Source: a virus
Virus record (IMG/VR): IMGVR_UViG_3300036791_001914
Location: 1 to 30,774 of that record
Strand: one strand, 5' to 3'
DNA: 30,774 nucleotides
How positions within the stretch are numbered: position 1 is the first letter of the stretch; every line of letters starts with the position of its first letter. The notes beneath the pieces are model-generated. The model was given only the letters and a program-made list of their open reading frames with translations, made no database searches and was not told where the DNA came from. The translations under genes were made by a program, and so were the position numbers. Shown piece by piece: positions 26,819 through 30,774 of this stretch.

Positions 26819-27975
26819 TGCTGACGGGAATGACGATCGACGCGGGTGCCAGCATGGCCCCGGCGTTTATGCTGACGCTGAACAGCCAGGATATTACGCG
26901 CAATATCAGCGACCGGCTGATTAGTCTCAGCATGACGGATAACCGGGGCTTTGAGGCTGACCAGCTTGATATTGAACTCGACGACACCGACGGGCTTGTG
27001 GAGTTGCCGACTCGCGGTGCGGTGCTCTCGCTTTTCCTCGGCTGGCAGGGGGCGGCGCTCATCGGGAAAGGGCAGTTTACGGTTGATGAAATCGAGCACC
27101 GGGGCGCGCCGGATACGCTGACCATCCGGGCGCGCAGCGCGGATTTTCGCGGTACGCTCAATTCCCGGCGTGAAACTTCATACCATGACACCACGCTCGG
27201 CGCGGTGCTGGAAACTATCGCCGGTCGCAACAAGCTGACGGCCAGCGTTGCGCCGCAGTTTGCCGGGATTCCTGTGCCGCATATTGACCAGTCGCAGGAG
27301 TCCGACGCGAAGTTTCTCACCCGACTTGCCGAGCGCAACGGGGCGGAGGTGTTGGTAAAAATGGGCAAACTGCTTTTTTTGAAGGCCGGGAACGGCGTCA
27401 CGGCCAGCGGCAAGCCCATTCCGCAGATGACTATCGAGCGCAGGGACGGCGACCGACATCAGTTTGCGATTGCCGATCGGGGCGCTTACACCGGCGTTAC
27501 GGTGAAGTGGTTGCACACTAAAGACCCCAAAGAGCAAAAGCAGAAGGTGAAGCTTAAGCGGAAACCTAAGCCGCAGCACTTGCGCGCACTCCAGCACCCG
27601 AAAGCGCAGCCGGTAAAAGCCCGACCAGTGACGAAGGAAAAAGAAGCCCGCGAGGGGGAGTATATGGTCGGGGAGGACGATAACGTCTTTGCGCTGACGA
27701 CCATTTACTCCAGCAAGGCGCAGGCCATTCGTGCCGCCCAGGCGAAGTGGGACAAGCTGCAACGCGGTGTGGCGGAGTTTTCAATCAGCCTGGCAATGGG
27801 ACGTGCGGATTTATATCCGGAAATGCCGGTCGCCGTCTCGGGCTTTAAGCGCGTGATAGACGGGCAGTCATGGACGATTACTAAGGTGTCCCACTCGCTC
27901 AGTAATAGCGGCTTCACGACGTCCTTAGAGCTTGAGGTGAGGCTTAATGACGTTGAGTATCAGGAGAGTGAATAA
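26818..27975 (+). CDS. D: Tail protein D (baseplate hub)
   Basis: 385 residues (P2 D: 387), gp27-like hub protein on which the V spike is mounted. Conserved are ITRNISDRLISLSMTDNRGF near the N-terminus, TLGAVLETIAGRNKLTASV, and the C-terminal SWTITKVSHSLSNSGFTTSL. A basic linker (about 235-275, KQKVKLKRKPKPQHLRALQH) is present. Often annotated 'late control protein D'. Confidence 0.95.
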   Translation: MLTGMTIDAGASMAPAFMLTLNSQDITRNISDRLISLSMTDNRGFEADQLDIELDDTDGLVELPTRGAVLSLFLGWQGAALIGKGQFTVDEIEHRGAPDTLTIRARSADFRGTLNSRRETSYHDTTLGAVLETIAGRNKLTASVAPQFAGIPVPHIDQSQESDAKFLTRLAERNGAEVLVKMGKLLFLKAGNGVTASGKPIPQMTIERRDGDRHQFAIADRGAYTGVTVKWLHTKDPKEQKQKVKLKRKPKPQHLRALQHPKAQPVKARPVTKEKEAREGEYMVGEDDNVFALTTIYSSKAQAIRAAQAKWDKLQRGVAEFSISLAMGRADLYPEMPVAVSGFKRVIDGQSWTITKVSHSLSNSGFTTSLELEVRLNDVEYQESE

Positions 27976-28061
27976 TGTGCGTAAAAGTTCATAACTCATT
28001 GTTAATAAATGATTTAATGCGTAAAATAACAACATCAGACGAAGCCATCCGAGGTGTTGAA

Positions 28062-28283
28062 ATGTTCCATTGCCCACTATGTCAGACTGCGGCCCATGCC
28101 CGCACCAGCCGTTATCATTCAACGGAAACAAAAGAGCGTTATCACCAGTGCCAGAACGTGAATTGTAGTGCGACCTTTGTCACGCTGGAGACGGTGAAGC
28201 ATTACATCGTTAAGCCGGGCGAAAGAACGCCCGTTATGCCGCACCCGATACCGGGCGGTCAGCAGCAAATTCACTGGATGTAA
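28062..28283 (+). CDS. ogr: Ogr zinc-finger late activator
   Basis: Activates the phage late promoters by contacting the alpha subunit of RNA polymerase. With the start at 28062 the product is 73 residues (P2 Ogr: 72): MFHCPLCQTAAHARTSRYHS at the N-terminus and CQNVNCSATFVTLETVKHYI after it. The zinc ligands are C4, C7, and the CQNVNC pair. GAGGTG ends five bases before the start. An open frame back to 27975 overlaps the D stop but is not conserved in P2 and is not used. Confidence 0.94.
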   Translation: MFHCPLCQTAAHARTSRYHSTETKERYHQCQNVNCSATFVTLETVKHYIVKPGERTPVMPHPIPGGQQQIHWM

Positions 28284-28347: not shown

Positions 28348-28521
28348 TTAGCTCATGTCTTTTAAGGTGAGGGGGCGGCGTGGGCTGTATAGGGTGTGCT
28401 CAATAACAATAAACTTTTTGTCTATCCACTGAGTAACCTGTGCGGGCTGCACGCCATGCAGGCGGGCAAACGAGCGCTGATTGCCGTTGTAGTATTTCCT
28501 GATGTATTCGATTAACGACAT
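28348..28521 (-). CDS. Small helix-turn-helix protein, Aca-like
   Basis: A 57-residue protein, MSLIEYIRKYYNGNQRSFAR at the start, then GVQPAQVTQWIDKKFIVIEH and YSPRRPLTLKDMS. The middle is a Cro/YdaS-type helix-turn-helix (about residues 13-36) followed by a short wing. It begins six bases after the stop of the AcrIF11-like gene on the same strand, so the two form an operon. Small HTH genes directly behind anti-CRISPR genes are typically Aca repressors that bind the operon promoter; the inverted repeat over the promoter at 29016-29032 fits. This assignment rests on context and size; no specific Aca family was identified. Confidence 0.78.
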   Translation of the reverse strand: MSLIEYIRKYYNGNQRSFARLHGVQPAQVTQWIDKKFIVIEHTLYSPRRPLTLKDMS

Positions 28522-28527
28522 AACGGC

Positions 28528-28986
28528 TTACTCCGCGAAGATTGCAGGGTTAACGATAAGATATGAGGTGCCGTGCTCGTCTTCCATTTCCACCGCATCA
28601 AAACCAAGGTGTGCAGCTATGCGGCCGCGCAGGCGTTGCATTTCCCAGCCAACATCCCCGGTGCATGAGCGAGGGGAAAGAATACCGGCGAAAGCATCGC
28701 CACACTCATCATCAGCCAGGGCGTTTGCCAGAGCGTCGATCTCGTCTTCATCTGCCTCAACTTCACCGGCCAGATAATCAATAACCTCTGAAATGCGGGC
28801 ATTCAGGGCGGCATTATCAGCAATTAGATTCACGTTGTAAGCGAAGACGTAATCACCGTGAGAGGCGGCGATGTCCTTATCTGAACAGGCGAACAGGCCA
28901 TCAAAAACGTTATCACCACTCATGGCAAAAGCGCCGATTTTGATTACTGGTGCATTGTTAATGCGTGAGCCGTGGAATAGTTTCAT
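28528..28986 (-). CDS. AcrIF11-like putative ADP-ribosyltransferase anti-CRISPR
   Basis: 152 residues with the start at 28986, chosen because AAAGGAAG lies about seven bases upstream; the open frame extends 14 codons further but without a signal. Residues 3-7 (LFHGS) resemble the first NAD-binding strand of ADP-ribosyltransferases, and LFACSDKDIAASHGDYV (31-47) follows. The C-terminal block 114-145, with WEMQ, AAHLGF and MEDEHGTSYLI, resembles the end of AcrIF11 as I recall it (WEIQ, AKTLGF, MQDEQGTCYMI). AcrIF11 blocks type I-F Cascade by ADP-ribosylating Cas8f. Between lies an acidic segment (75-97) probably mimicking nothing specific. The HTH gene behind it supports an acr-aca unit. An alternative is an ADP-ribosylating toxin or effector with another target. 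Confidence 0.78.
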   Translation of the reverse strand: MKLFHGSRINNAPVIKIGAFAMSGDNVFDGLFACSDKDIAASHGDYVFAYNVNLIADNAALNARISEVIDYLAGEVEADEDEIDALANALADDECGDAFAGILSPRSCTGDVGWEMQRLRGRIAAHLGFDAVEMEDEHGTSYLIVNPAIFAE

Positions 28987-29015
28987 TGGATTGCTTCCTT
29001 TCAATTGATTTAATG

Positions 29016-29032
29016 TATAGTAAAACACTATA
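29016..29032 (-). promoter_or_regulatory. Operator-like inverted repeat over the acr promoter
   Basis: TATAGT (29016-29021), five-base spacer, ACTATA (29027-29032): a perfect 6-bp palindrome. Its left arm covers the -10 box of the acr-like operon. It is the likely target of the adjacent HTH protein. Confidence 0.6.
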
Positions 29033-29045
29033 TCAAAAATGACAA
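29017..29045 (-). promoter_or_regulatory. Promoter of the acr-like/HTH operon
   Basis: On the minus strand TTGTCA (29045-29040), 17-base spacer, TACTAT (29022-29017). The predicted start is about 25 bases before the ATG at 28986. A strong sigma-70 promoter suits early expression after infection. Confidence 0.65.
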
Positions 29046-29051
29046 TGTTTT

Positions 29052-29079
29052 AAAAAAATGGCCCGCGGATCGCGAGCCA
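29052..29079 (-). terminator. Terminator insulating the acr-like operon
   Basis: On the minus strand TGGCTCGCG, three-base loop, CGCGGGCCA (one mismatch) followed by seven T. It stops leftward transcripts from the right-hand gene a few bases before the acr promoter. Confidence 0.8.
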
Positions 29080-29209: not shown

Positions 29210-29608
29210 TCAATACAAATGGGTATTGGAAAGCATAATTACTTTTGCTCTTTCGGGACTTTCTTTCCCCATCTCATCACATGTTGCTAGTGGTTTTTCA
29301 AGGACGTACCCCATTGCTTTGTGTTTATTCAGTACATGCAATTCTTTGGTTGTTTTCATATAGGTGTTCGGTACATCTTTGGTCCAAACATCTGAGCATA
29401 CCCCTGTAGTTATAACAGCCTCATAGATATCTGGCGTGATTCGGTTTTCATTTAAAATGACCGTGGCAATGTTGTTCTTTTCCGTGATTTCAATTGGTTG
29501 CCAGAGTTTTAGCTGCTTCTGCAAGGTTTTTACGTTGTTAGTTTGGGCGTGGGCGGTAATAGATAAAAAAATGGCAACGACCGCAGTTGTTGATTTGAGG
29601 CTGAGCAT
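29210..29608 (-). CDS. Small exported protein of unknown function
   Basis: 132 residues. A clear signal peptide (KSTTAVVAIFLSITAHA, likely cut after AHA at residue 21) sends it to the periplasm. The mature part has two cysteines (C71 and C110) able to form a disulfide, and no recognised domain. The ATG at 29608 is chosen over 29617, because AAGGA would touch the latter. It stands alone on the minus strand with its own candidate promoter and is bracketed by the two attachment-arm modules. It is not part of P2; a lysogenic-conversion or exclusion gene is possible, but nothing in the sequence shows which. The DNA is AT-rich compared with the tail genes. Confidence 0.75.
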   Translation of the reverse strand: MLSLKSTTAVVAIFLSITAHAQTNNVKTLQKQLKLWQPIEITEKNNIATVILNENRITPDIYEAVITTGVCSDVWTKDVPNTYMKTTKELHVLNKHKAMGYVLEKPLATCDEMGKESPERAKVIMLSNTHLY

Positions 29609-29644
29609 AGAGAACATCCTTATTAAACATTGGGTTAAAAGTTG

Positions 29645-29748: not shown

Positions 29749-29770
29749 AGTTGGTTAGGTGGCATTATCT

Positions 29771-29814
29771 GACACCATCCCTGTCTTCCCCGCCTCACCA
29801 GGCGGGTTTTTTTT
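29771..29814 (+). ncRNA. cpxQ: 3' part of the CpxQ sRNA / cpxP terminator (attR junction)
   Basis: ACACCATCCCTGTCTTCCCC (29772-29791) is identical to the E. coli/Salmonella CpxQ RNA as I recall it; CpxQ is cut from the 3' end of cpxP mRNA, binds Hfq and represses envelope-protein mRNAs. It is followed by a terminator, CCCGCCT, four-base loop, AGGCGGG and eight T (29789-29814). The bases before 29771 no longer match, so the phage-host junction falls at or inside this block and the attachment core is probably part of it. cpxP itself should lie beyond attL. Confidence 0.7.
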
Positions 29815-29838
29815 GCCTGAGAGTTAGGACGAATCCGC

Positions 29839-29844
29839 TATACT
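29839..29844 (+). promoter_or_regulatory. Candidate -10 box of fieF
   Basis: TATACT, 28 bases before the start codon. No good -35 is seen at normal distance. The site lies on the host side of the junction, so fieF should keep its own promoter. Confidence 0.4.
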
Positions 29845-29871
29845 AGCCAACATTCTCTTGTTGGAGCCCCT

Positions 29872-30774
29872 ATGAATCAACAATATGGGCGGTTGGTCAG
29901 CCGTGCGGCGATTGCTGCCACGCTGATGGCGTCGCTGTTACTTTTGATTAAAATTTTCGCCTGGTGGTACACCGGATCGGTCAGTATTCTGGCGGCTCTG
30001 GTTGATTCGCTGGTGGATATTGCCGCCTCGCTGACTAACCTGCTGGTTGTGCGCTATTCGCTCCAGCCTGCGGATGAAGAGCATACTTTTGGTCACGGTA
30101 AAGCGGAGTCGCTGGCAGCCCTGGCACAAAGCATGTTTATTTCAGGTTCTGCACTGTTCCTGTTTTTAACGGGTATTCAGCACCTGGCTGACCCTGAGCC
30201 AATGAAGCAGCCGATGGTCGGGGTTATCGTGACGGTCATCGCCCTGGTTAGCACGCTAATTCTGGTGACCTTTCAACGCTGGGTGGTCAGGAAAACGCAG
30301 AGCCAGGCCGTGCGGGCCGATATGCTTCATTATCAGTCTGATGTTATGATGAACGGTGCGATTCTCGTTGCGTTAGCGCTGTCCTGGTACGGCTGGCATC
30401 GCGCGGATTCCCTGTTTGCATTAGGGATCGGCGTCTATATTTTGTATAACGCGATTCGCATGGGCCACGAGGCCGTGCAATCTCTTTTGGACCGGGCGTT
30501 ACCCGAATCCGAGCATCAGGCCATCATTGATATTGTGACTTCGTGGCCGGGCGTCCGGGGCGCACATGATTTACGGACGCGACAGTCAGGGCCGACCCGA
30601 TTTATTCAGATTCATATCGAAATGGAAGACAATTTGCCGCTGGTTCAGGCACACGTGATTGCGGAACAGGTGGAGCAGGCGATCCTGCATCATTTTCCTG
30701 GATCGGATGTGATAATTCATCAGGATCCCTGCTCGGTCGTTCCATCGGGGCGGCAAGGGCATTTTGAGCTTTAG
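29872..30774 (+). CDS. fieF: FieF (YiiP) ferrous iron/zinc efflux transporter
   Basis: Inner-membrane cation diffusion facilitator that exports Fe2+ and Zn2+ in exchange for protons. 300 residues, same as E. coli FieF. The transport site is D45, D49 (LVDSLVDIA) and H153, D157 (HYQSD); the loop site D68, H71, H75 is also present. Six membrane helices fill residues 10-205, and the cytoplasmic ferredoxin-like domain follows, with conserved [16 protein letters not shown] and HQDPCSVVP. The start follows TTGGAGCCCCT. It is complete, and its stop is the last base of the window. The C-terminal tail (SGRQGHFEL) differs from E. coli. Confidence 0.97.

Follow-up and report, generated by a model that had tools for sequence, protein, structure and literature searches.

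The window analysed here (the whole stretch of 30,774 nucleotides, virus record IMGVR_UViG_3300036791_001914) carried an operon of a kind already known, in which a gene for an AcrIF11-family enzyme is followed by one for an Aca5-family repressor. With a probability of roughly 87%, this operon is a moron of a P2-like prophage that would be expressed on entry, modify Cas8f and then be shut down by its own HTH protein. On phage entry, the promoter at 29045-29017 would be free and the operon would be expressed by the host RNA polymerase. The 152-aa enzyme would ADP-ribosylate a conserved asparagine of Cas8f (Csy1), upon which the type I-F surveillance complex would fail. The same transcript would also yield the 57-aa HTH protein, which would then bind TATAGT-N5-ACTATA over the -10 as a dimer and reduce expression of the operon in the lysogen to a low level. 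The activity of the enzyme and its target, binding by a dimer, repression and the timing of these steps are inferred from the comparisons given below.

Operon layout and the AcrIF11-family enzyme

Both genes were located on the minus strand. The acrIF11-family ADP-ribosyltransferase gene at 28528-28986 started with ATG and encoded 152 aa (LFHGS...WEMQRLRGRIAAHLGFDAVEMEDEHGTSYLI); in the open reading frame listing it comprised 166 aa when started at an upstream GTG. The aca5-family HTH repressor gene at 28348-28521 encoded 57 aa and was separated from it by six bases (28522-28527). A sigma-70-like promoter on the same strand at 29017-29045, with TTGTCA at 29045-29040, a 17-base spacer and TACTAT at 29022-29017, matched the consensus in 9 of 12 positions. 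The -10 was situated in a perfect TATAGT/ACTATA palindrome, and the predicted operator TATAGT-N5-ACTATA (29016-29032, minus strand; TATAGTAAAACACTATA) covered the -10 and the spacer. All of these elements had been listed in the initial annotation and were found as described there, and its acr-aca type of layout was borne out. The promoter scan by itself is weak evidence for an operon promoter, with three promoter-like sites found versus 1.2 +/- 1.1 in shuffles. TATAGTAAAACACTATA occurred a single time in the window, and a set of 300 mononucleotide-shuffled versions of the window included one with the motif. Homologous operons held a palindrome at a similar position, and promoter and palindrome are considered to be above chance because both recur at homologous genes. 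This comparative evidence supports an operator in the core promoter. According to PMC9410906, Aca families have inverted repeats inside core promoters and repress through them; the repeat at 29016-29032 was likewise placed inside the core promoter, over the -10. Upstream of the operon promoter, a terminator-like hairpin with a T run was identified as a consensus match at 29059-29079 (minus strand), one of two such hairpins versus 1.0 +/- 1.0 in shuffles.

The 152-aa protein scored 119.6 bits over residues 1-144 against NCBIfam NF052490 (equivalog AcrIF11_anti), for which the cut-off is 50 bits. The nearest solved structures in a phmmer search of the PDB were 6kyf (AcrIF11, E 2e-14) and 8dwq (AcrIF11Pae2, E 4e-4). 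An AlphaFold2 model built with 27 sequences reached a pLDDT of 90.5 and was matched by Foldseek to 6kyf with E 1.6e-10, probability 1.00 and TM values of 0.68/0.75. The fold alignment comprised 32% identity, and VEMEDEHGT was common to both proteins. Residues H5, D136 and E137 were invariant in 27 of 27 homologues. D136/E137 aligned with D115/E116 of AcrIF11Pae1 (6kyf, assuming that its chain numbering is shifted by 5) and with D146/E147 of AcrIF11Pae2, which are required for activity as stated in PMC12421852. The window enzyme thus resembles AcrIF11Pae1 and AcrIF11Pae2 in the predicted ADP-ribosyltransferase fold and the loop with the catalytic D/E pair. It differs from these structures by a longer helical middle, visible as alignment gaps, and by a P2-like prophage as carrier. 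Profile, sequence, fold and catalytic pair all agreed with the AcrIF11-like nature put forward earlier for 28528-28986, and no other fold or family emerged. By model score, predicted fold match to 6kyf and conserved catalytic pair, the protein is a member of the AcrIF11 family; ADP-ribosyltransferase activity and Asn250 of Cas8f as the target are probable.

Several other acrIF11 loci were noticed. Divergent AcrIF11-family enzymes were encoded upstream of Aca5-family genes in L053, L055 and L005 (each 1022-1501) and in L061 (1068-1511). Their N-terminus read ITHAS or VLHTS, DEQG replaced DEHG, and those of L053 and L061 scored 117 and 130 bits with NF052490. On the E. coli plasmid pEM03-18-08_3 (L020), an acrIF11 homologue adjoined IS26 and a TEM-1 gene and had no Aca5-like gene directly behind it. 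The Yersinia similis homologue (L016/L028, from 1363) showed a frameshift near its 3' end. L026 and L154, both of 17,814 bases and the former titled as a Planctomycetaceae MAG, held a homologue 53% identical to that of the window, followed by an ORF of a different kind (SKLSQAKRDADERYRKRR...).

The Aca5-family repressor and its predicted operators

The 57-aa protein matched phrog_10103 with 111 bits. It was modelled by AlphaFold2 as a compact HTH with a pLDDT of 93.8 and helices at residues 3-11, 15-22 and 26-34, the last being approximately the recognition helix (PAQVTQWID). Foldseek returned no close solved relative of this model (best E 0.84), and none of the library models named the protein as Aca5. 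It was 47% identical to the HTH protein encoded after acrIF11 in Pectobacterium fontis and matched the family profile of that protein in hhalign with E 5e-28. The published Aca5 is a 60-aa HTH protein of Pectobacterium (PMC9410906), and aca5 was found downstream of several acrIF11 orthologues according to PMC7648647. The window protein is likewise a small HTH encoded directly downstream of acrIF11, as in Enterobacterales. Of the 83 loci with an acrIF11 match, overlapping loci of one contig being counted apart, 53 had an Aca5-family gene no more than 150 bases downstream of the match; the loci without such a gene included Moraxella, Rouxiella and a record titled Planctomycetaceae. The 30 distinct Aca5-family proteins encoded at most 150 bases behind an acrIF11 homologue were 52-66 aa long. 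From its sequence, the window protein most probably belongs with the Aca5 family, where it was filed by comparison with the Pectobacterium fontis HTH and not with the reference WP_039494319.1. As in the acrIF11-aca5 operons of Enterobacterales (PMC7648647), acr was followed a few bases later by aca5, and the promoter held an inverted repeat, as seen in homologous loci. The window combined helix PAQVTQW with TATAGT-N5-ACTATA, whereas the Enterobacterales operons combined, for example, PQQVTKW with TAATCA-N5-TGATTA, and it differed from them in its site between ogr and attR.

A single HTH sequence gave no match in viral contigs; with the alignment as query, 83 loci were obtained, of which 80 were kept. 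One HMM built from 34 family members gave 131 matches in the loci, representing 72 distinct proteins. Two of these, with fewer than 100 upstream bases, were left out and 70 proteins were kept. The operator search was blind to the protein; it required TA at -6/-5 and a centre of 5 bases, and took the best such palindrome in up to 950 bases of upstream sequence. Bases -6/-5 carry no information, since they were fixed by this search. An earlier palindrome search limited to at most 130 bases upstream of the operon was discarded; it had picked another hairpin for the window and missed several sites. Sites with at least 6/7 matching arm positions were detected for 51 of the 70 proteins and with 7/7 for 39; when each upstream region was shuffled 20 times, such sites arose at rates of 7.5% and 0.2%.

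Across the 70 distinct Aca5-family proteins, the sequence of the predicted operator half-site (positions -7 to -1) varies with that of the recognition helix. Helix PQQVTKW..W was associated with ATAATCA in 10 of 13 proteins (not L012, L086 and L095) and RQQVTKW..W with GTAATCA in 5/5, for L084 in one arm. PQQV[TN]KW..MGC went with ATAAACC in 7/8 (not L071; L063 in one arm). The window class, PAQVTQW..F, was found with ATATAG[T/C] in all 11 proteins, the window included, and in ten cases the arms matched at 6/7 positions or more; in the window and L078 one arm started with G. Six proteins with PQQ[VI][TS]QW..F were associated with ATAAAG[T/C], which was present in both arms for L005, L032, L051 and L053, off at one outer base for L069 and present in one arm only for L002. 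RPQKV[QN]DW was linked to ATAACCG (4/4), DAQAVNKW to ATAGTCA (5/6, not L148) and DRQK..[VL]W to GTAGTCT in the left arm (7/7, six at 5/7). Across the 28 clusters formed at 75% identity, Q31 coincided with G-2 in 8/8 versus 1/20, R26 with G-7 in 6/6 versus 1/22 and A27 with T-4 in 4/4 versus 0/24 clusters. The corresponding Fisher tests (p 3e-6 to 5e-5) take no account of relatedness and use one member per cluster. No convincing site was detected for nine of the 70 proteins (L012, L086, L095, L087, L094, L062, L071, L148 and L035). L075 and L083 had sites of at least 6/7 at odds with the helix table, and L002 and L143 had hybrid sites. Six of the seven DRQK proteins, L145 and L078 reached 5/7 only, a level without a computed null rate.

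Two operator copies per promoter were observed in L005 near 945-990 and in L143 upstream of 1501, the latter as TATAGT-AAAAC-GCTTTA plus its reverse complement. Small ORFs were located between the predicted operator and the Aca5-family gene in L051 (1244-1492), L052 (460-627), L065 (1217-1489), L068 (1136-1486), L056 (1292-1501), L064 (1286-1501) and L090 (1186-1485). They had no NCBIfam match; the L052 ORF showed a weak Pfam similarity to DUF2188 below the cut-off. These ORFs are candidates for anti-CRISPR genes or for genes with another role in counter-defence.

When the helix columns were left out of the tree, helix residues changed four to seven times on it, and its supported branches gave only one to three independent pairs, which limits the independence of the helix/half-site co-variation. 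Among the tests listed, nearly all independent pairs were on average as predicted, and a few of the random pairings were not. In a leave-out test with training proteins of less than 65% identity and a helix distance of at most 1, the half-site was predicted without any error in 29 of 39 cases; taking an operator at random achieved this in 2 of 39. The held-out set comprised eleven loci with 10 distinct proteins, L188 and L193 sharing the same protein over the compared part, and none had been used to build the helix table. Six proteins had a helix in the table and four a helix outside it. Both arms were as predicted for three proteins (L188/L193, L192 and L194), that of L194 being from a Vibrio plasmid. 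For L195 and L031, one arm was as predicted and the other off by one base, the L031 prediction being read off the table and not computed by script. L189, a close relative of L195, was a near miss at 5/7. Hence, five of six held-out proteins with a tabulated helix had the predicted half-site in one or both arms. For helices outside the table, no site was detected in L190, L191 and L033, and L034 had a site predicted by no rule.

Prophage slot, host relatives and alternative readings

The left neighbour of the operon was the ogr/Delta late-gene activator at 27975-28283 (plus strand, Pfam PF04606, E 2e-21), which was convergent with it. A 135-aa gene in the same ogr-attR slot, at 29210-29617 on the minus strand, matched phrog_3807 with 194 bits; by eye, its product showed a hydrophobic N-terminus resembling a signal peptide. 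The prophage/host boundary (attR) was placed at approximately 29771, from where chromosomal DNA upstream of fieF begins. Host homology began at base 12 of 29760-30774 in five genomes (G116, G310, G144, G328 and G242) and at base 1 of 29771-30774 in several genomes. The host fieF ORF followed at 29872-30774 (plus strand); fieF is also the annotation of the gene that comes next to ogr in E. coli RM8385. The location given in the initial annotation, between ogr and attR, was supported by the Pfam ogr match and the start of host homology before fieF. In the RM8385 P2 prophage, ogr was directly followed by fieF at a distance of 236 bases, and in E. coli CAVP776 one opposite-strand gene and then the integrase came after ogr. 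The slot can thus be empty in other P2 prophages, since ogr adjoins fieF in RM8385. In tblastn, ogr, gpD and the 135-aa protein of the window gave no match in 182 loci, most with 1.5-4 kb flanks, while the acr control matched in 83 of the 182. None of the other acrIF11 loci showed these P2 genes within its flanks.

The window record is a virus contig without a chromosome, and type I-F CRISPR in the host is therefore presumed on the basis of a genus whose fieF differs by 11-15% at the DNA level. Three genomes of this genus had the nearest fieF, at 89, 86 and 85% identity, and Csy1 (type I-F Cas8f) was present in five of six genomes. A second genus, with fieF at 82-83% identity in four genomes, held Csy1 in one of 12 genomes. 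The AcrIF11 target asparagine (N250 in P. aeruginosa Cas8f, KPQN) was conserved in L175, the single Csy1 that was aligned. Each of the six genomes examined had CRISPR arrays adjacent to Csy1, with a repeat of 28 bases that we take to be type I-F-like. From arrays within stretches of about 18-20 kb, 66 distinct spacers were collected for these six genomes; none matched the window, the best reaching 13 exact bases or 15/16. The check named in the initial annotation, for type I-F or I-E CRISPR with phage-directed spacers in host relatives, thus gave type I-F Csy1 in five of six genomes of the nearest genus and no such spacer among the 66.

The lack of a phage-matching spacer among the 66 would also fit an AcrIF11-fold ADP-ribosyltransferase directed at another Cas or host protein, the pair being a general counter-defence or toxin-like unit. 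According to PMC12421852, the AcrIF11 family is wide and its variable helical middle is suggested to recognise the target, and for the window enzyme Foldseek gave the MbcT toxin as a weak match (E 0.26). We regard a target other than Cas8f as unlikely, given the wide margin by which the equivalog model was passed, the similarity to 6kyf in both sequence and fold, the type I-F systems in the nearest host genus (5/6) and the target asparagine kept in the one Cas8f aligned.

Doubt may also be directed at the repressor side. The palindrome might be a mere A+T-rich promoter feature, with the HTH protein binding elsewhere or regulating other phage genes; in favour of this, its arms comprise just 6 bp with a mismatched seventh position (ATATAGT/GTATAGT), and promoter-like sites are frequent in this A+T-rich stretch. 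The recurrence of the half-site before unrelated genes and stand-alone copies with the same helix (11/11), the pairing of other helices with half-sites of a different sequence but an unchanged N5 spacing and the outcome for the held-out proteins with a tabulated helix (5/6, wholly or in one arm) make this reading very improbable. Slightly less probable still is an HTH family separate from Aca5. The initial annotation had suggested a new Aca group because the protein seemed shorter than known Acas; this length argument fails, as the 30 acr-linked members comprise 52-66 aa and the published Aca5 60 aa. The modest identity to the Pectobacterium HTH, the differing helix and operator and the silence of the library models speak for separation. 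They are outweighed by membership in one phrog, the single HMM from 34 members that recovered 131 matches (72 distinct), the hhalign match, the shared size range and the shared place after acrIF11, and a new Aca group was rejected on homology to the Pectobacterium fontis HTH, size and place. The preferred reading thus remains an acrIF11-aca5 moron directed at Cas8f and controlled by its own HTH protein.

Stand-alone repressor genes and wider meaning

The nearest relatives of the window repressor, at 74-82% identity, were proteins of 53 aa with no acr between operator and start codon. Such stand-alone copies were present in prophage contigs (L040, L043, L046, L047, L049 and L050) and on IncI2 plasmids (L021, L184 and L185); five more contigs with close relatives ended at the gene start. 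Sequences resembling the operator and gene of L021 were held by 538 of 72,556 plasmid records. Typing gave IncI2 in 3/3 such records examined, and these three plasmids encoded one identical 53-aa protein behind TATAGTAAATTACTATA. The stand-alone genes share with the window the helix core PAQVTQW and the half-site TATAGT but, unlike the repressor gene of the window, follow their operator without an intervening acr. That solo Acas may repress acr genes of foreign elements in trans was raised in PMC9410906, where solo copies are described as larger than acr-linked ones and as not always having the motif. In contrast to those, the stand-alone copies found here were as small as acr-linked ones and the motif was present. 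Trans silencing of the window operon therefore becomes a concrete prediction. We tentatively suggest, at somewhat less than even odds, that the Aca5 code is readable (R26/G-7, A27/T-4, Q31/G-2) and forms insulated specificity classes, that resident copies of the same class on IncI2 plasmids and prophages silence incoming acr operons, and that phages escape by switching class.

In the literature searched, no residue-to-base table for Aca5 and no specificity shared with stand-alone copies was found; part of this may be in print, in the motif figure of PMC9410906 or in subscription papers outside the search, including the original Aca5 description. The P2 ogr-attR slot is one more place where anti-CRISPRs sit. 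The residue-to-base table provided here covers a family of repressors, about 52-66 aa in size, whose presence marks anti-CRISPR loci; operators, hence new acr operons, could therefore be predicted from the repressor alone. The anti-anti-CRISPR role proposed for stand-alone Aca genes, raised in PMC9410906, would become directly testable with named repressor/operator pairs.
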